Shown here: positions 4,089 through 19,751 of the stretch, in pieces | How positions within the stretch are numbered: position 1 is the first letter of the stretch | How the letters are laid out: every line of letters starts with the position of its first letter | Source: a virus | DNA: 20,738 nucleotides | Strand: one strand, 5' to 3' | IMG/VR virus record: IMGVR_UViG_3300048928_000135 | Coordinates: 1-20,738 of that record | The notes under the pieces: generated by a model | Databases searched by the model: none | Seen by the model: the letters and a program-made list of their open reading frames with translations, nothing else | Told to the model about the DNA's origin: nothing | Translations under genes and position numbers: made by a program

Positions 4089-4495
4089 TTCCCGATATCG
4101 CGGCGGCGCTGGCCGCCAGGCTCGGCGAGTGGGCTGATGCTGAAGGGATCCCGGTTGCCTGGGAAAACGTGCCTTTCACACCGCCGTCTGATGGGCTCTA
4201 TCTTGCTGTCCATGACATGCCCGCTTCGCCGCGTACGGTAGACCTTGGATTGCGCTGCCGCATTTATTCAGGTGTCTACCAGATTAACGTTGTGGCTCCA
4301 GCCGGCATAGGCCGTACCGATGTAGTGGCCCTGGTAGACCGCGTGGCTGAATTGTTTCCCGAGGGGCTGGAGATTGAAGGCAGGGGCTTTACATGCTGGA
4401 TAGATGAAACGCCTGGTGTTTTCCGCGGTATCACTACATCTGTCGCTTATACCGTTCCCGTTAGTCTCAATTATCGAGCTGATATCTCCAGCTAA
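4085..4495 (+). CDS. Tail terminator protein (DUF4128/lambda gpU-like)
   Basis: A 136-residue protein starting MIPDIAAALAARLGEWA, with P-V-A-W-E-N-V-P-F-T-P-P and a Y-L-A-V-H strand. This opening (A-L-x-x-R-L, then W-E-N-x-P-F-x-P) is characteristic of the phage tail terminator family that caps the tail tube, stopping polymerisation and binding the neck. The second half has the expected strand-helix pattern (VYQINVVAPAGIG, ALVDRVAELFP). A strong Shine-Dalgarno, AGGGAGGTGA (4071-4080), lies before the ATG, inside the previous gene, and the two genes overlap by 4 bases. Confidence 0.75.
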   Translation: MIPDIAAALAARLGEWADAEGIPVAWENVPFTPPSDGLYLAVHDMPASPRTVDLGLRCRIYSGVYQINVVAPAGIGRTDVVALVDRVAELFPEGLEIEGRGFTCWIDETPGVFRGITTSVAYTVPVSLNYRADISS

Positions 4496-4517
4496 TCCTC
4501 ACAACCTTCTAAACCTG

Positions 4518-4537
4518 ACCGGCTCTTTGCCGGTTTT
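4518..4537 (+). terminator. Weak terminator-like hairpin before the major tail gene
   Basis: ACCGGC (4518-4523) and GCCGGT (4529-4534) form a 6-bp stem with a 5-nt loop, followed by a short T run (TTTT, 4534-4537). It lies 22 bases after the tail terminator gene. The short T tract suggests only partial termination or an RNA-processing or stability role for the very abundant downstream message. Confidence 0.4.
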
Positions 4538-4561
4538 CCCGTTTCTAAAGGAGTAACCAAT

Positions 4562-5233
4562 ATGGGCTTTGCATTGCCTAACGGCGCTCACGTCTATCTG
4601 GCATCGGGTTATGGCCCAGCCATTCCTTTCACCGGGGCGACGAACGCCGAAAATATGGAGATCACCGTGAGTGAAGCGGACGCTCTCAAGGTAGGTGATA
4701 TTGTTCATGTGAACTGCAACTGGTCCGGTGTTGATAACGTCATTGCAAAAATTGATGCGATTGCCGAAAGCGCCGTAACTCTTCGCAATATCAATACCAC
4801 CAACAAAAACAAATATGCCGCTGGTGGCGGTACCGGTTCGATCCGCAAGGTGCTTGAATGGACCGAGCTGCCGCAAATTACTGAGGTGTCGAAATCTGGT
4901 GGCGATCAGAACACCACACAGATTCAGTTCCTGAGCGACGACCGCCAGCGAAACCTGAATACCTATAAATCCGCAGTCTCTCAGACCTACTCGATCGCTC
5001 ACGACTCAACTCTCCCGGTATATCCGTTGCTGCGCCAACTGGACGAAGATGAAGAGACCGTTGCGGCTTACATGTACGTGCCGAAGGCGAAGGAAAACCG
5101 TTACTGGGCGGCCACGGCGTCCTTTGACGATACGCCAACTACTGCGGTTAACGAGGTAGAGACAGTAAGTGTGGTGCTGAACCTGCAGTCACCGGCGATG
5201 ACGTTCTACAAGGTGACTGACGCTGCTGCCTGA
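4562..5233 (+). CDS. Major tail (tube) protein
   Basis: A 223-residue protein placed between the tail terminator and the tail chaperones, the invariant site of the siphophage tail tube gene. The sequence begins MGFALPNGAHVYLASGYG, has a beta-rich first half (ALKVGDIVHVNCNWSGVDN), and then W-T-E-L-P-Q-I-T-E-V-S-K-S-G-G-D, a pattern typical of tube subunits where a loop contacts the neighbouring ring. AAAGGAG (4547-4553) is a strong Shine-Dalgarno, fitting a very highly expressed protein. The C-terminus (NLQSPAMTFYKVTDAAA) is short, with no extra decoration domain. Confidence 0.8.
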   Translation: MGFALPNGAHVYLASGYGPAIPFTGATNAENMEITVSEADALKVGDIVHVNCNWSGVDNVIAKIDAIAESAVTLRNINTTNKNKYAAGGGTGSIRKVLEWTELPQITEVSKSGGDQNTTQIQFLSDDRQRNLNTYKSAVSQTYSIAHDSTLPVYPLLRQLDEDEETVAAYMYVPKAKENRYWAATASFDDTPTTAVNEVETVSVVLNLQSPAMTFYKVTDAAA

Positions 5234-8948: not shown

Positions 8949-9305
8949 ATGGCTTCAGTTAAGGTGACGGCTCTGTGGGTCGGGGATGAAAAATCAAGTA
9001 TTTCATTCGTTTCTCCAGTTCTGAATGACAAAAAACTCAATTATGACAATGCTTCCTTCGGTTTTGGCGTTGTAGAAAACTACGAGACATGGGGAGTCGA
9101 ACGATACCCATTTGTAATGGAAGAATTTGGGAAAGGTTTAGCCCTTCTTGATTGGGGATCAACAATCCAAAAAAACATTGCCACAATTGATGTATTGGAT
9201 GTACCTCTAAATGTTGACGGCATCATTACATACAACGAAATTGACGAGAACGGATCGCAACGTGGGCCTTATGTCTACCGAATTTCGACTGTGGAATCGT
9301 TTTAA
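8949..9305 (+). CDS. Unknown accessory (moron) protein between tape measure and gene M
   Basis: A 118-residue acidic protein (MASVKVTALWVGDEKSSISF...) that I do not recognise. It has no signal peptide, membrane segment or cysteine, so a small soluble cytoplasmic protein with alternating strands is likely. It interrupts the normally adjacent H and M genes, lies in a more AT-rich stretch than its neighbours, is preceded by AAGGGGC (8937-8943) and a possible promoter, and is followed by a strong intrinsic terminator. That promoter-gene-terminator arrangement is the definition of a phage moron, typically expressed from the prophage and not needed for the virion. It could alternatively be a tail component not found in lambda, but the flanking signals argue against it. 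Confidence 0.75.
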   Translation: MASVKVTALWVGDEKSSISFVSPVLNDKKLNYDNASFGFGVVENYETWGVERYPFVMEEFGKGLALLDWGSTIQKNIATIDVLDVPLNVDGIITYNEIDENGSQRGPYVYRISTVESF

Positions 9306-11220: not shown

Positions 11221-11832
11221 GTGGCATTTGTCAACTTGAATAATTTTTATATTAAAATGGTCGTGGTCTGCGTTCCATTTGTCGTTGGGGTCGGGCTTGC
11301 ATGCTTGAGTTTCTTCGGGCACAGTCACAATCTATGGACTGGGTTTGGATATTTGATAACGTCCGTAGCAGTGAGTTTTTTCCTGTTGCGATGGTTGGTA
11401 TGGGGAGATTTGAACCTCGCCAATGGTTCAGCCATTGCTACAATCGGAGGTGGGTTAGGTCTGATAGGGATCTTGGCTGGTTCAAATATTACTGATCCTG
11501 CATTTATTCAAGTGCGCACCGATTTACAGGAGTCCTTCTTAGATGCGTCCTTAAATTGCAAAGGTAATAAGACGCTATTTGACGGTGCTCTTACGTCTTG
11601 TTTAGCAGCTACTTCTAAGGATGCTTTGGCGTTGGGGCAAGAGTTGATTAAAGCCAGGTATTTAGCTCCGACATTATCTTTGGCAGATGGTGTGTATCAT
11701 TCGAGCGATGAAGCTAAGGCGGATGCATGTTTAGTAAATTATTATTTACTTTCAAAGGAATGCCCAAGTAGCTTTATAGAATTCAATAAAAAACACCCAG
11801 AAGTTGCTAATCCGTCAGCCAATAATAAGTAA
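11221..11832 (+). CDS. Unknown three-helix membrane protein (moron) between K and I
   Basis: A 203-residue protein from GTG 11221. Three hydrophobic helices are visible, at about residues 13-33, 41-61 and 70-88. Arg57 near the end of the second places it inside, so the N-terminus would be cytoplasmic and the 115-residue C-terminal part periplasmic. That part has exactly four cysteines (113, 127, 170, 181), consistent with two disulfides. K and I are adjacent in lambda, so this is an insertion; its composition is more AT-rich than the tail genes. By topology it resembles prophage inner-membrane exclusion proteins (HK97 gp15 is a moron of this general kind), but I do not recognise a family. The start is uncertain, with only a weak ACGGA upstream; ATG 11257 would shorten helix 1. 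Confidence 0.75.
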   Translation: MAFVNLNNFYIKMVVVCVPFVVGVGLACLSFFGHSHNLWTGFGYLITSVAVSFFLLRWLVWGDLNLANGSAIATIGGGLGLIGILAGSNITDPAFIQVRTDLQESFLDASLNCKGNKTLFDGALTSCLAATSKDALALGQELIKARYLAPTLSLADGVYHSSDEAKADACLVNYYLLSKECPSSFIEFNKKHPEVANPSANNK

Positions 11833-11926: not shown

Positions 11927-12529
11927 ATGACATTTTTAACTGGTCAGCCGATGAGAACCATACGCCTCTATGGAATACTTGGCTCAACATTTGGTCGTGA
12001 ATTCAAACTTTCTGTTGCTTCGCCTAAAGAAGCCGTTCGTGCATTGTGTGTGATCGTGCCGGGTTTTGAGCGTTTCCTGAATACTAGTAAGCAGCGCGGG
12101 CTTACTTACGCTGTATTCAGTGGAAAGCGTAACCTGAACGATGATGAACTCTCTATGGATCAGAGTACCGCTGATATCCGTATTGCGCCGGTTATCCTCG
12201 GGAGTAAACGTGGTGGAGTATTCCAGACCATCTTAGGCGTGGCTTTGGTCGCAGTTGGTGCTGTGGCGTCATACTTTGGCGGAGGTGCTGTCGGCGTTCC
12301 TCTAATGCAATTTGGCGCTGCGATGGCCCTTGGCGGTGTCGTTCAAATGCTTTCTCCACAGACAACCGGACTTGCCAGCAAGCAATCGGCAGACAACAGG
12401 GCTAGTTATGCCTTTGGTGGAGTAACAAATACGACAGCTCAGGGCAATCCGGTACCGCTCTTGTACGGACGGCGCCGTATAGGTGGCGCGATCATCTCCG
12501 CCGGTATCTATGTTGAAGATCAGCAGTAA
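11927..12529 (+). CDS. I: Tail assembly protein I
   Basis: A 200-residue protein from ATG 11927, which follows GGAGG (11917-11921) at 5 bases. The N-terminal half is a ubiquitin-like beta-grasp domain (IRLYGILGSTFGREFKLSV, PKEAVRALCVIVPGFERFL) and the second half a Gly/Ala-rich hydrophobic region (about 97-142), ending in G-N-P-V-P-L-L-Y-G-R-R-R-I-G-G. This is the lambda gpI pattern; gpI is required for tail tip assembly but is not found in the mature tail. In lambda it lies directly between K and J; here it is flanked on both sides by inserted genes. TTG 11915 is a possible but inferior start. Confidence 0.88.
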   Translation: MTFLTGQPMRTIRLYGILGSTFGREFKLSVASPKEAVRALCVIVPGFERFLNTSKQRGLTYAVFSGKRNLNDDELSMDQSTADIRIAPVILGSKRGGVFQTILGVALVAVGAVASYFGGGAVGVPLMQFGAAMALGGVVQMLSPQTTGLASKQSADNRASYAFGGVTNTTAQGNPVPLLYGRRRIGGAIISAGIYVEDQQ

Positions 12530-12541
12530 GCATGCTGTAAT
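12513..12541 (+). promoter_or_regulatory. Candidate sigma-70 promoter for the I-J accessory gene
   Basis: TTGAAG (12513-12518) and TGTAAT (12536-12541) are separated by exactly 17 bases and match the -35 consensus at 4 of 6 and the -10 at 5 of 6 positions. The pair straddles the end of gene I and lies about 40 bases before the accessory gene. The prediction is by eye only. Confidence 0.4.
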
Positions 12542-12582
12542 GGGCTTACTTAATATGGGGTAACTTGAGCTTAGATTTAAAA

Positions 12583-13299
12583 ATGAAAAAAATATCTACT
12601 CTTTTCCTTTGTACTTCCTTATTTTCAGGCATGGCTTTTGCTGAGAATCATTATATACCTCTCCTCTATAATTTATCTACTATGTTTGATTTCAATCCAG
12701 TTAAAGGCGCTGTCAAATCCTTAGATACTGATGTTGAAGAAAATGGGAAAGTTACTTATAAAATCGCCATCAGACTGGCTAAGAATGGTTGTGTCGAAAG
12801 CTTAGATCTTGACAACGTTTCGTCTGGTCATGAAACAAATCTAAAAAATAGCAATGGAAGTCTTATTGGAAAGAGAGATGGTAAACCTTTCTCTATACAG
12901 TTCGATGAAAAATGTAATATTTTGAGTGAAAATGAAAATGGTGACGAGTTGCGATATAGTCTTTACTCGAATGGCTTAATTAAAGATACCTATTATTTGG
13001 GTAAGAAAATATCTGAGCATTTTTATGATGATAATTCTAATTTGATACGTTCTGAGTTTTATGGTTCTGAAAAGGCCCTCTCTAAAAACGAAATATCTTA
13101 TGTTGATAAAGATAGGAAGCCTCTTGATTATAAAATCATAAACACATCAGTTTACTCGGAAGGTTATACAGCAACGAATACTTGTCATTATAGCGAAAAG
13201 CTTGTTCCTGAAATATGCAAAGTAACAATGCAGAGCGCAGGGAATCCTGTGCCGAAGCCAGTACTAATGACAGCGAATACCAAAGTTGAATTCTACTAG
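12583..13299 (+). CDS. Exported YnfC/UPF0257-like protein (moron) between I and J
   Basis: A 238-residue protein with a signal peptide (MKKISTLFLCTSLFSGMAFA, predicted cleavage before ENH). The mature part resembles E. coli lipoprotein YnfC (236 residues): F-D-F-N-P-V-K-G-A-V-K, N-G-C-V-E-S-L-D-L, a K-P-L-D-Y segment, C-H-Y-S-E-K-L-V-P-E-I-C-K, and a final K-V-E-F-Y. All four mature cysteines (70, 111, 201, 212) correspond to those of YnfC, suggesting two disulfides. YnfC has a lipobox; this copy has none and should be a soluble periplasmic form. The DNA is clearly more AT-rich than its neighbours, a sign of transfer. TTG 12565, behind GGGG, is an alternative start adding six residues. YnfC's function is not established. 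The similarity is judged from memory of YnfC. Confidence 0.75.
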   Translation: MKKISTLFLCTSLFSGMAFAENHYIPLLYNLSTMFDFNPVKGAVKSLDTDVEENGKVTYKIAIRLAKNGCVESLDLDNVSSGHETNLKNSNGSLIGKRDGKPFSIQFDEKCNILSENENGDELRYSLYSNGLIKDTYYLGKKISEHFYDDNSNLIRSEFYGSEKALSKNEISYVDKDRKPLDYKIINTSVYSEGYTATNTCHYSEKLVPEICKVTMQSAGNPVPKPVLMTANTKVEFY

Positions 13300-13316
13300 A
13301 TTAAACACATTTCAAT

Positions 13317-13341
13317 AAGCCACCTCCGGGTGGCTTTTTTT
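13317..13341 (+). terminator. Strong intrinsic terminator after the YnfC-like gene
   Basis: AAGCCACC (13317-13324) and GGTGGCTT (13329-13336) form a perfect 8-bp stem closed by a TCCG loop (UNCG-type, very stable), with the T run extending to 13341. It ends 11 bases before the J start, matching the arrangement in front of gene M. Confidence 0.87.
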
Positions 13342-13352
13342 ATGGGCGTAAT

Positions 13353-16300
13353 ATGGCTATAGCAACCGCTATTAAAGGCCGCAAGGGCGGCAGTTCAAGC
13401 TCAAGAACTCCTACAGAACAGCCAGACGATCTGCAGTCAGTAGCCAAGGCAAAAATCCTTCTCGCGCTGGGAGAGGGGGAGTTTGCTGGTGGCCTCACTG
13501 CGCGCGATATTTATCTCGATGGCACCGCACTTGAGAACTCAGATGGTTCACAGAACTTCAGCGGTGTGGCTTGGGAGTTTCGTTCTGGAACTCAGGCGCA
13601 AAAATACATTCAAGGGATCCCAGGTACTGAAAACGAAATCAATGTAGGTACCGAAGTTTCCAGCTCTACAGCGTGGACGCGCACGTTCACCAATACGCAG
13701 CTTTCAGCTGTTCGCCTGCGTCTAAAATGGCCTTCTCTCTTCAAACAGGAGGACGATGGCGATCTGGTTGGCTATTCGGTCAACTACGCAATTGACCTGC
13801 AGACAGATGGCGGCACCTGGCAGACGGTGCTAAATACCAGCGTGACCGGGAAAACCACCTCTGGTTATGAACGCAGCCACCGTATTGATTTACCTCAGGC
13901 GGGCAGCACCTGGACCATCAGGCTGCGAAAAATTACAGCCGATGCCAATAGCGCGAAGATTGGCGACACGATGACGCTGCAAAGCTTTACAGAAGTAATC
14001 GACGCCAAACTGCGATATCCGAACACTGCGCTATTGTACATTGAATTTGACTCGAGCCAGTTCAATGGCTCAATTCCGCAAATTGCCTGCGAGCCTCGCG
14101 GGCGTGTTATTCGTGTGCCCGATAACTATGACCCCGAAACAAGAATGTACAGCGGCACCTGGACGGGCGCATTTAAGTGGTCATGGACGGATAACCCTGC
14201 GTGGATATTTTACGATCTGGTGGTCACTGACCGCTTCGGTCTTGGTAATCGGCTAACAGCAGCCAATATCGATAAATGGACGCTTTATCAGGTCGCTCAG
14301 TATTGTGATCAACCGGTACCGGACGGTAAGGGTGGTAGCGGAACTGAACCGCGTTACACCTGCAACGTTTACATTCAGGATCGGAATGACGCTTACACTG
14401 TCCTGCGTGACTTTGCTGCCATTTTTCGAGGCATGACCTACTGGGGAGACGAGCAGATTGTTGCCCTTGCAGACATGCCCAGAGATGTCGATTTTACCTA
14501 CACTCATGCTAACGTAGTCGACGGCAAATTTGTGTATTCCAGCAGCACAACCAAAAGTCGCTACACGAACGCTCTTGTATCCTGGTCTGATCCGGCAAAT
14601 GGCTATGCTGATGCAATGGAGCCAGTCTTCGAACAGGAGCTGGTGGCGCGCTATGGTTTCAACCAGCTTGAGATCACCGCCATCGGTTGCACCCGGCAGT
14701 CTGAGGCTAACAGAAAAGGGCGCTGGGGGATCCTGACCAACAATAAAGATAGGATTGTAACGTTTGACGTTGGTCTGGACGGCAATATTCCTCAGCCGGG
14801 GTACATAATTGCTATTTCTGACCGAAATCTTTCAGGGAGAAATTTAGGCGGTCGATTATCCGCGGTTAATGGTCGCGTCCTCAAGCTTGACCGGGTGCCA
14901 AGTGCTAAGGCCGGTGACAGGATAATGGTAAACCTGCCGTCGGGTATTACCCAATCCCGGACGATTCAGTCCCTGTCCGGTGAAATGGTCACCGTAACAA
15001 CTTCCTTTAGTGAACTTCCGCAGGCTGAGGCTGTATGGGTAATTGAATCTGATGAACTTTATGCGCAGCAGTACAGGGTAATTAGTGTCACCGATAACAA
15101 TGACGGGACATATACCATCACGGGGGCAAATCACGATCCGGATAAATATGCCCGAATCGATACGGGTGCCATCATTGATCAGCGGCCGGTAAGTGTCATC
15201 CCTCCAGGTAATCAGTCGCCGCCAGCCAACATCGCGATCAGCTCGTTTTCGGTGGTTCAGCAGAATATCAGCGTCGAAACCATGCGAGTGAGCTGGGACC
15301 AGGCACAAAATGCCATCGCTTATGAGGCGCAGTGGCGCCGCAACGACGGGAACTGGGTTAACATGCCTCGTAGCTCCACCGCTTCCTTTGACGTTTCCGG
15401 CATCTACGCCGGACGGTACCTGGTGCGCGTGCGTGCTATCAATGCAGCGGAAATTTCATCCGGGTGGGGATATTCAGAAGAGAAGACGTTGACCGGCAAA
15501 GTGGGCAATCCGCCCAAGCCAGTGGGCTTTATGGCTACGGGCATTAACTGGGGTATTCGTCTGAACTGGGGGTTCCCGGGAAACACCGGCGATACCCTCA
15601 AAACAGAAATCCAGTACACGGCCAACAGCGACTTTTCCGATCCGTTGCTGCTATCGGACGTACCTTATCCATCTGCTGAATATACCCAGCTCGGGCTGAA
15701 AGCCGGGCAGGAATTCTGGTATCGCGCGCAACTGGTTGACAGAACGGGTAACGAGTCCGGTTACACCGACTGGATTAGGGGGATGTCTAACGATAATGCT
15801 GATGATTATCTGGGTGATATTGCAGACGATTTCCTTACCTCTACTGATGGGGAGCGCCTCACTGGTGACATCGATACCAACATTGAGGGAATTCTTCAGA
15901 ACGCCCTGGCGAACCACGGAACAGTCGAGCATCAGTGGGCACAATACGGGGAGGTGCGTGCCGATATCCTGGTTGTGAAAACGACTATTGCTGAGGTGGA
16001 TAGGGCAATGGCCGAAATGTCGACACAGGTGCAGGCGCAGATCGATAACGTCACCGCTTCACTGGAAGACAAGCTCACAGCCGTCGTCGATGCCTCCGGT
16101 GCTTCGGCAATCTACACCCTCAAAACAGGCGTGAGGATAAACGGGGTGATGTACAACGCCGGGATGTCGATTGCTGTGCTTGCTGAGGCCGGGAAACCGG
16201 TAGTAACCAGGGTTGGCTTTAACGCTAATCAGTTCGTGCTGATGAGTGGCAATGGTGATACCCAGTATTCACCGTTCGCAGTGGTTAATGGTCAGGTCTT

Positions 16301-16538
16301 TATCAGCTCAGCGTTTATTCAGGATGGCACGATCACCAATGCCAAAATCGGCAACTTCATCCAGTCCAATAATTACGTCCCTGGGCAGTCCGGGTGGAAA
16401 CTGGACAAAGGCGGTACCTGGGAAAACTACGGCAGCGATGGGGAGGGCGCAAGAAAGACCACGAACGTTACTGACAGCATCAGGGATGCGAACGGCGTCC
16501 TCCGCGTACAGATTGGTAAGCTTACAGGGGTATTTTAA
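13353..16538 (+). CDS. J: Host specificity protein J (central tail tip/receptor-binding protein)
   Basis: A 1061-residue protein of the lambda J family (lambda J is 1132). The N-terminus (KGRKGG-SSSSRTPTEQPDDL-QSVAKAKILLALGEGE) is the family signature. Residues to about 600 form the hub domains (F-S-G-V-A-W-E-F-R-S-G, P-R-G-R-V-I-R-V-P-D-N-Y, T-D-R-F-G-L-G). Two fibronectin type III-like domains follow (about 625-720 and 725-815). The DUF1983-like central straight fibre region (about 820-1010) contains a short helix with heptads (VDRAMAEMSTQVQAQIDNV). The C-terminus, which decides the receptor in lambda, ends DANGVLRVQIGKLTGVF. Only weak GGG (13344-13346) precedes the ATG. The stop overlaps the next start by one base. 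Confidence 0.95.
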   Translation: MAIATAIKGRKGGSSSSRTPTEQPDDLQSVAKAKILLALGEGEFAGGLTARDIYLDGTALENSDGSQNFSGVAWEFRSGTQAQKYIQGIPGTENEINVGTEVSSSTAWTRTFTNTQLSAVRLRLKWPSLFKQEDDGDLVGYSVNYAIDLQTDGGTWQTVLNTSVTGKTTSGYERSHRIDLPQAGSTWTIRLRKITADANSAKIGDTMTLQSFTEVIDAKLRYPNTALLYIEFDSSQFNGSIPQIACEPRGRVIRVPDNYDPETRMYSGTWTGAFKWSWTDNPAWIFYDLVVTDRFGLGNRLTAANIDKWTLYQVAQYCDQPVPDGKGGSGTEPRYTCNVYIQDRNDAYTVLRDFAAIFRGMTYWGDEQIVALADMPRDVDFTYTHANVVDGKFVYSSSTTKSRYTNALVSWSDPANGYADAMEPVFEQELVARYGFNQLEITAIGCTRQSEANRKGRWGILTNNKDRIVTFDVGLDGNIPQPGYIIAISDRNLSGRNLGGRLSAVNGRVLKLDRVPSAKAGDRIMVNLPSGITQSRTIQSLSGEMVTVTTSFSELPQAEAVWVIESDELYAQQYRVISVTDNNDGTYTITGANHDPDKYARIDTGAIIDQRPVSVIPPGNQSPPANIAISSFSVVQQNISVETMRVSWDQAQNAIAYEAQWRRNDGNWVNMPRSSTASFDVSGIYAGRYLVRVRAINAAEISSGWGYSEEKTLTGKVGNPPKPVGFMATGINWGIRLNWGFPGNTGDTLKTEIQYTANSDFSDPLLLSDVPYPSAEYTQLGLKAGQEFWYRAQLVDRTGNESGYTDWIRGMSNDNADDYLGDIADDFLTSTDGERLTGDIDTNIEGILQNALANHGTVEHQWAQYGEVRADILVVKTTIAEVDRAMAEMSTQVQAQIDNVTASLEDKLTAVVDASGASAIYTLKTGVRINGVMYNAGMSIAVLAEAGKPVVTRVGFNANQFVLMSGNGDTQYSPFAVVNGQVFISSAFIQDGTITNAKIGNFIQSNNYVPGQSGWKLDKGGTWENYGSDGEGARKTTNVTDSIRDANGVLRVQIGKLTGVF

Positions 16539-17621: not shown

Positions 17622-17861
17622 ATGACGAAAATAATGTTCGCGATGGCATTTTGCCTGTTTCTTTCTGCTTGCTCTGGTTCCGTTCTGCAAAAGCAGGAAC
17701 CATTATGCGAGGCAGAAGCGCTTATTGGTGGTCAGGTTCTGTCGATACAGATTTACGATGTGCGCAAAGTAGCCAATCAGACAGAATATAGAGCAGGCTA
17801 CCCCTTCAATTGGCGATGGGTGAGCAAAAATAACTTCACCAGGTCGACCTGTTCAAAATGA
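17622..17861 (+). CDS. cor: Cor-type phage exclusion lipoprotein
   Basis: A 79-residue protein with a lipoprotein signal: basic start MTKIM, hydrophobic core, then L-F-L-S-A-C with Cys17 as the lipidated residue and Ser at +2, which favours the outer membrane. The remaining part carries A-L-I-G-G-Q, I-Q-I-Y-D-V-R and Y-P-F-N-W-R-W-V-S, with Cys29 and Cys77 able to form one disulfide. This matches the Cor proteins of phi80/N15/mEp167-type phages, which inactivate the FhuA receptor so that other FhuA-dependent phages cannot infect lysogens. AAGGTG (17612-17617) precedes the start. Position after the J cluster with its own terminator is the usual location of cor. Confidence 0.8.
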   Translation: MTKIMFAMAFCLFLSACSGSVLQKQEPLCEAEALIGGQVLSIQIYDVRKVANQTEYRAGYPFNWRWVSKNNFTRSTCSK

Positions 17862-19331: not shown

Positions 19332-19751
19332 ATGGAATTCATCAGGCCAACAGAACTGCGAGAAATCATCGCTCTTCCGCTTTTCAGTGACTTAGTCCAA
19401 TGCGGATTCCCCAGCCCTGCCGCTGATTACGTTGAACAGCGTATCGATCTCAATGAGTTACTGGTTACTCACCCGAGCTCAACATATTTCGTTAAGGCCG
19501 CTGGTGACTCAATGATCGAGGCGGGTATCAGCGACGGTGATCTGCTGGTGGTTGATAGTTCGCGAACTGCTGAGCATGGTGATATTGTCATTGCCGCGGT
19601 AGAAGGGGAATTCACTGTTAAGCGCCTGCAGCTGCGCCCGACCGTGCAGCTCAATCCTATGAACAGCGCCTACAGCCCGATTGTTGTTGGCAGCGAAGAT
19701 ACGCTGGACGTTTTCGGCGTTGTTACTTTCATCGTTAAATCTGCGAGCTAA
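19332..19751 (+). CDS. umuD: UmuD, SOS mutagenesis protein (self-cleaving DNA polymerase V subunit)
   Basis: From ATG 19332 the protein is 139 residues, exactly the E. coli UmuD length. It has the cleavage site Cys24-Gly25 (V-Q-C-G-F-P-S-P), the catalytic Ser60 in A-G-D-S-M-I and Lys97 in F-T-V-K-R-L, all at the E. coli positions. RecA filament-stimulated cleavage makes UmuD', which with UmuC forms the error-prone DNA polymerase V. AGGTG (19321-19325) lies 6 bases before the ATG; a longer open frame upstream to 19254 crosses the LexA box and is not used. umuC follows after 2 bases. Confidence 0.95.

Follow-up and report, generated by a model that had tools for sequence, protein, structure and literature searches.

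The window analysed here comprised 20,738 nucleotides (positions 1 to 20,738 of IMG/VR virus record IMGVR_UViG_3300048928_000135), to which all coordinates refer unless another locus is named. A gene predicted to encode a secreted UPF0257 protein (P0001; 12583..13299, plus strand) was identified from its match to PF06788, its conservation and the purifying selection acting on it. On the same strand, it is bordered upstream by the tail assembly gene I (11927..12529; phrog_32, E 9.5e-77) and downstream by the host specificity gene J (13353..16538), a homologue of the gene annotated as J in E. coli NZ_CP015912.1. The ORF runs from an ATG at 12583 to a TAG at 13297-13299 and encodes 238 aa. A TTG start at 12565 (MSLDLKMKK...) was disfavoured, since that position offers no start in frame in three other loci (L006, L021, and L028), and in L034 the upstream ATG is separated from the gene by a stop. 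L034 was also seen to contain, just 5′ of the UPF0257 gene, an ORF of four codons (ATGAGCTTAGATTAA) that has a good ribosome-binding site and is possibly coupled translationally to the gene; the matching position of the window reads TTG, in frame. Elsewhere in the window, 19335-19748 was found to encode a UmuD-like DNA polymerase V subunit (NCBIfam PRK10276, 162 bits, cut-off 110).

The 238-aa protein showed a significant match to UPF0257 (PF06788; 63.7 bits compared to a gathering score of 25 bits, E 2.9e-17), which was its sole Pfam match, and the alignment covered residues 5-238 of the protein and positions 5-236 of the 236-position profile, i.e., the full length. A preliminary description of this DNA had likened the product to the enterobacterial lipoprotein YnfC over its length, with four cysteines kept, and had proposed such a profile search. 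The likeness was confirmed by the search, and the residues concerned (C70, C111, C201, and C212) were shown to be invariant between the phage copies and YnfC, as was F35-D36-F37 of the FDF.P..G.VK core motif. E. coli YnfC showed 25% identity to the phage protein over 202 columns in a single BLASTP comparison (E 1e-12). Because the score against the NCBIfam YnfC equivalog (NF002798) was 71.7 bits, compared to a cut-off of 263 bits, the phage protein was assigned to UPF0257 but not to YnfC.

The N-terminus (12583..12642, plus strand) was predicted to be a signal peptide (MKKISTLFLCTSLFSGMAFA) without a lipobox. Cleavage is expected after A20 (A-F-A followed by E), a site called by inspection and from the conservation of A20 in all aligned phage copies. 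A lipobox was absent from every phage copy of which the signal was read, the signals ending in A-[FL]-A-[ED], S-L-A-D, S-H-A-E, G-H-A-N, or V-H-A-E. The earlier reading of the signal end as A-F-A-E, with no lipobox cysteine, was therefore correct and extends to the other phage copies read, and these non-lipid signals are consistent with export of an unanchored protein.

A tree of 97 proteins, the root position of which was not fixed, placed the phage protein in a 28-row clade of UPF0257 proteins without a lipobox (support 96/82; two of the 28 rows have an ambiguous cysteine) and outside a separate 45-row clade of YnfC lipoproteins (support 99/96). Within the 28-row clade, eleven phage representatives grouped together with the chromosomal protein L080 (100/98), which is the closest chromosomal relative (50% identity) and has a signal ending in A-N-A and no lipobox. 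The non-phage members of the secreted clade were found to be solo chromosomal genes, and in the neighbourhoods read their surroundings were ordinary, without phage tail genes. As judged from the signals and the tree, secretion without an anchor is common to the phage protein and its chromosomal relatives and is not a phage invention. The phylogeny suggested in the preliminary description did bring the phage copies together as one group without a lipobox, with weak support (81/57), but the clade without a lipobox was shared with chromosomal proteins. The statement that the phage form had lost its lipobox was consequently not supported, and a scenario of YnfC losing its lipobox inside phages was set aside on this evidence. 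Because the root is not fixed, gain and loss of the lipobox look alike on the tree; the data can be accounted for without any loss within phages.

UPF0257 genes were found in 139 out of 392 genomes of the GTDB family containing Citrobacter braakii, with a second, divergent copy in some, and a profile built from the phage copies recovered a graded series of relatives. In some genomes, a YnfC lipoprotein was shown to be encoded alongside a secreted chromosomal paralogue. UPF0257 genes were also observed in tandem chromosomal pairs (L136, secreted; L139, lipobox-bearing); the idea of an immunity protein, which such tandem copies might suggest, was discarded as no toxin or secretion gene was seen by eye in the neighbourhoods read. 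Current family models file the secreted UPF0257 subfamily only as distant YnfC.

These relationships bear on the possibility that the soluble phage form is a decoy or dominant-negative version of host YnfC, competing for a YnfC partner. The phage protein has the fold family and the four cysteines of YnfC with the anchor absent, and a chromosomal ynfC is present in each of the three hosts in which phage-type copies were found. However, the identity to E. coli YnfC is only about 25%, the secreted clade is separate and common with chromosomal genes, and YnfC and a secreted chromosomal paralogue co-occur in some genomes. Since the clade as a whole is secreted and the closest chromosomal relative also has no lipobox, a decoy directed at YnfC specifically is less likely, and we consider it improbable.

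Thirty-seven relatives with 59-97% identity were found in IMG/VR, and all those with both flanks readable were located between I and J (L028-L030 end at the UPF0257 gene and are not readable on both sides). Among GTDB genomes, phage-type copies were found in C. braakii, another Citrobacter, and Kluyvera, all three of which also encode a high-scoring chromosomal ynfC. The phage-type gene was not detected in 5,426 E. coli genomes by a DNA-level search or among plasmids, and the named phage records gave no match except for a contig carrying E. coli ynfC. In a literature search, no paper tying UPF0257 to phages was found.

Among 79 related phages with readable I and J, the I/J junction was empty in 44, contained this gene in 12, and contained other DNA of several kinds in 23. 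An intrinsic terminator (AAGCCACCTCCGGGTGGCTTTTTTTAT; 13317..13343, plus strand) was predicted just before J by a consensus scan, and its hairpin and T-run were kept in 44/44 empty junctions (among loci L162-L241) and also in E. coli NZ_CP015912.1. The I/J junction is a recurrent cargo slot with a predicted built-in terminator, which is part of the slot and not of the cargo because it is present in all 44 empty sites. The proposal that the gene has a terminator of its own is thus not supported, and the terminator was rejected as a sign of transfer as a unit. As every empty junction keeps it, late transcription must read through it. The same terminator also marks the border where cargo inserts. 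Other I/J cargo (L174, L184, L194, and L201) was observed to encode proteins of ~199 aa, 84 aa, and ~310 aa, none of which matched a Pfam family above cut-off; the ~310 aa protein has a putative N-terminal membrane helix.

The UPF0257 gene has a GC content of 34% (GC3 29%) compared to 50-53% for the tail genes H, M, L, K, I, and J (I 51%, J 52%), in agreement with the earlier description of an acquired, AT-rich gene. Two more AT-rich extra genes were observed in the tail operon, one in the K/I gap (11221-11832), the product of which resembles a membrane protein, and one in the H/M gap (8949-9305); neither had a Pfam, PHROG, or PADLOC match. In a related E. coli prophage (L033, positions 1438-2241 and 4183-4860), the H/M gap encodes a DUF6694 lipoprotein and the K/I gap an octameric membrane protein (8xMP), and several gaps of the tail operon are thus cargo sites.

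The main specific rival explanation is superinfection exclusion, namely that a periplasmic protein of the lysogen, like other tail-region morons, blocks entry of an incoming phage genome or a receptor-linked step. The gene has the anatomy of a moron adjoining J, and the same phage has the known exclusion gene cor, which encodes a lipoprotein (17622-17861; NCBIfam 137.9 bits, cut-off 31). Accessory genes of prophages often act in exclusion, e.g., HK97 gp15, P22 SieA, and Cor (PMC11436027). On the other hand, the phage protein had no PADLOC match, and its solo chromosomal relatives need not be anti-phage. Moreover, in a sample of 35 the phage copies were found with three C-terminal classes of J, two of which also occur with an empty slot, so that the gene is not part of one receptor module; no link between the gene and the J receptor type was seen in this sample. 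Exclusion is plausible, with nothing pointing to it specifically, and we regard it as clearly less probable than the reading given below.

A promoter-like element (12512..12540, plus strand) was found upstream of the gene, consisting of TTGAAG (12512-12517), a 17-bp spacer, and TGTAAT (12535-12540) with a TGC extended -10; its -35 lies within the last codons of gene I. TTGA[AT][AG]-17-TGTAAT was present in 40/40 copies with readable upstream DNA, which belong to related phages and are not independent counts, and in 0/18 distinct empty and 0/12 distinct other-cargo junctions. Upstream of chromosomal L080, TTGAAT-17-TGTAAT was found in the same arrangement, though no gene I is present there, and CATGCTGTAATG is common to this region and the window. 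The -10 hexamer differs from TATAAT at the second position, which is usually strict, and the element in the window was not listed by the consensus scan. Altogether, the distribution supports a sigma-70 promoter-like element that goes with the gene and not with the slot. At the level of sequence, the promoter proposed earlier therefore holds, whereas the terminator lies outside the transferred unit.

dN/dS was 0.10-0.20 in 18 of the 19 computable pairs (five distant pairs were saturated and are outside this set); the exception was the close pair L036/L039, with 0.52 at a dS of 0.03. The values were equally low for the mature part and low also at dS near and above 1, and the gene is under purifying selection. 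Nearly every copy was intact; L016, interrupted by a single in-frame stop, was the exception. Short stubs of I and J are what is left of the tail region in Kluyvera genomosp. 3, where ~40 kb yielded none of the window's other tail genes, yet the cargo, the promoter element, and a terminator are intact; this is a single remnant, in which prophage decay could be recent. A functionless passenger, i.e., a host gene that the phage picked up recently and that drifts there, would be in line with the presence of the gene in only 12 of the 79 related phages and with a base composition unlike that of the phage, but the low dN/dS over such distances and the intact gene in nearly all copies and within a decayed prophage speak against it, and it is considered highly improbable.

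An AlphaFold2 model with phage and YnfC sequences as input (mean pLDDT 74.2, pTM 0.70; a first model was weak, with a pLDDT of 61.9) predicted a helix at 26-35 followed by beta-strands. A sequence search for solved relatives gave none. The best solved fold neighbour was 4ghb, a DUF4595 porin-like protein from Bacteroides uniformis (Z 9.5, rmsd 4.4, 184 residues aligned; next row 6.7), which shows 9% identity to the phage protein. LolA/LolB/RseB-like matches (Z 5-6, background level) and matches in a viral library to MORN/YwqK-type beta-repeat proteins (low TM-scores) were discarded. PF06788 is assigned to the Tubby C-terminal clan (Pfam clan CL0395; a 12-stranded barrel with a central helix), but it has been argued not to fit this clan, the AlphaFold model of the family being read as a barrel of 16 strands with a helix at the N-terminus, and the family being termed uncharacterised (PMC12095923). 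A ynfC deletion was scored among the less tolerant mutants in a Keio ciprofloxacin tolerance screen (PMC13131330).

Our preferred explanation, with a probability of about 0.62, is that the gene is a lambdoid moron, i.e., a lysogenic-conversion gene, the product of which would be a soluble beta-barrel in the periplasm, of use to the lysogen and not part of the virion. It is an extra gene between two operon genes, is absent from close relatives, has an odd base composition, and is preceded by a putative sigma-70 promoter of its own, with an extended -10, conserved in all 40 copies. This promoter would fire in the repressed prophage, the slot terminator would insulate J, and late antiterminated transcription would pass both. 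Sec would export the protein and signal peptidase I would cleave it after AFA; once in the periplasm, it would fold into a beta-barrel that has a helix at its N-terminus and probably two disulfides, and would act on the host envelope in a way that favours the lysogen. The activity is the least certain step; a tentative guess is that the protein binds a hydrophobic or peptide ligand in the periplasm and would thereby be the soluble equivalent of the membrane-anchored YnfC. To our knowledge, no secreted UPF0257 protein has been assigned a phenotype.

These results correct the tempting story that a phage stripped the anchor from YnfC, because the secreted UPF0257 branch is also present on chromosomes. 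They show that the I/J junction is a slot for cargo, that it has a predicted built-in terminator, and that it also takes several other uncharacterised genes. They further open a way into an envelope family that is uncharacterised, because a member that is carried by phages, under selection, and retained by a host suggests a benefit, one that lends itself to assays in lysogens. A broader and rather unlikely view would be that UPF0257 proteins are envelope beta-barrels in lipid-anchored (YnfC) and soluble periplasmic forms, somewhat like LolB and LolA, and that phages spread the soluble form among enterobacteria, adding a lipid- or peptide-binding activity to the envelope of the lysogen.

Compared to the phage morons HK97 gp15, lambda lom and bor, and cor, the gene is likewise an extra gene of the late region with a putative promoter of its own, odd composition, and patchy occurrence, but its product belongs to an unrelated protein family and is predicted to be soluble and periplasmic. 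The YnfC lipoprotein (NF002798/PRK02939; E. coli ynfC) shares the family, the length, the four cysteines, and FDF.P..G.VK with the phage protein, which differs by its low identity, the absent lipobox, a score below the equivalog cut-off, and a separate clade. The secreted chromosomal paralogues L080, L083, L084, L086, and L089 have the signal without a lipobox, the clade, and the four cysteines in common with it, and L080 in addition half of its residues and a similar promoter element, but they are solo genes in ordinary neighbourhoods whereas the phage gene lies between I and J. What is new here is thus a member of two known kinds, a moron and a UPF0257 protein.
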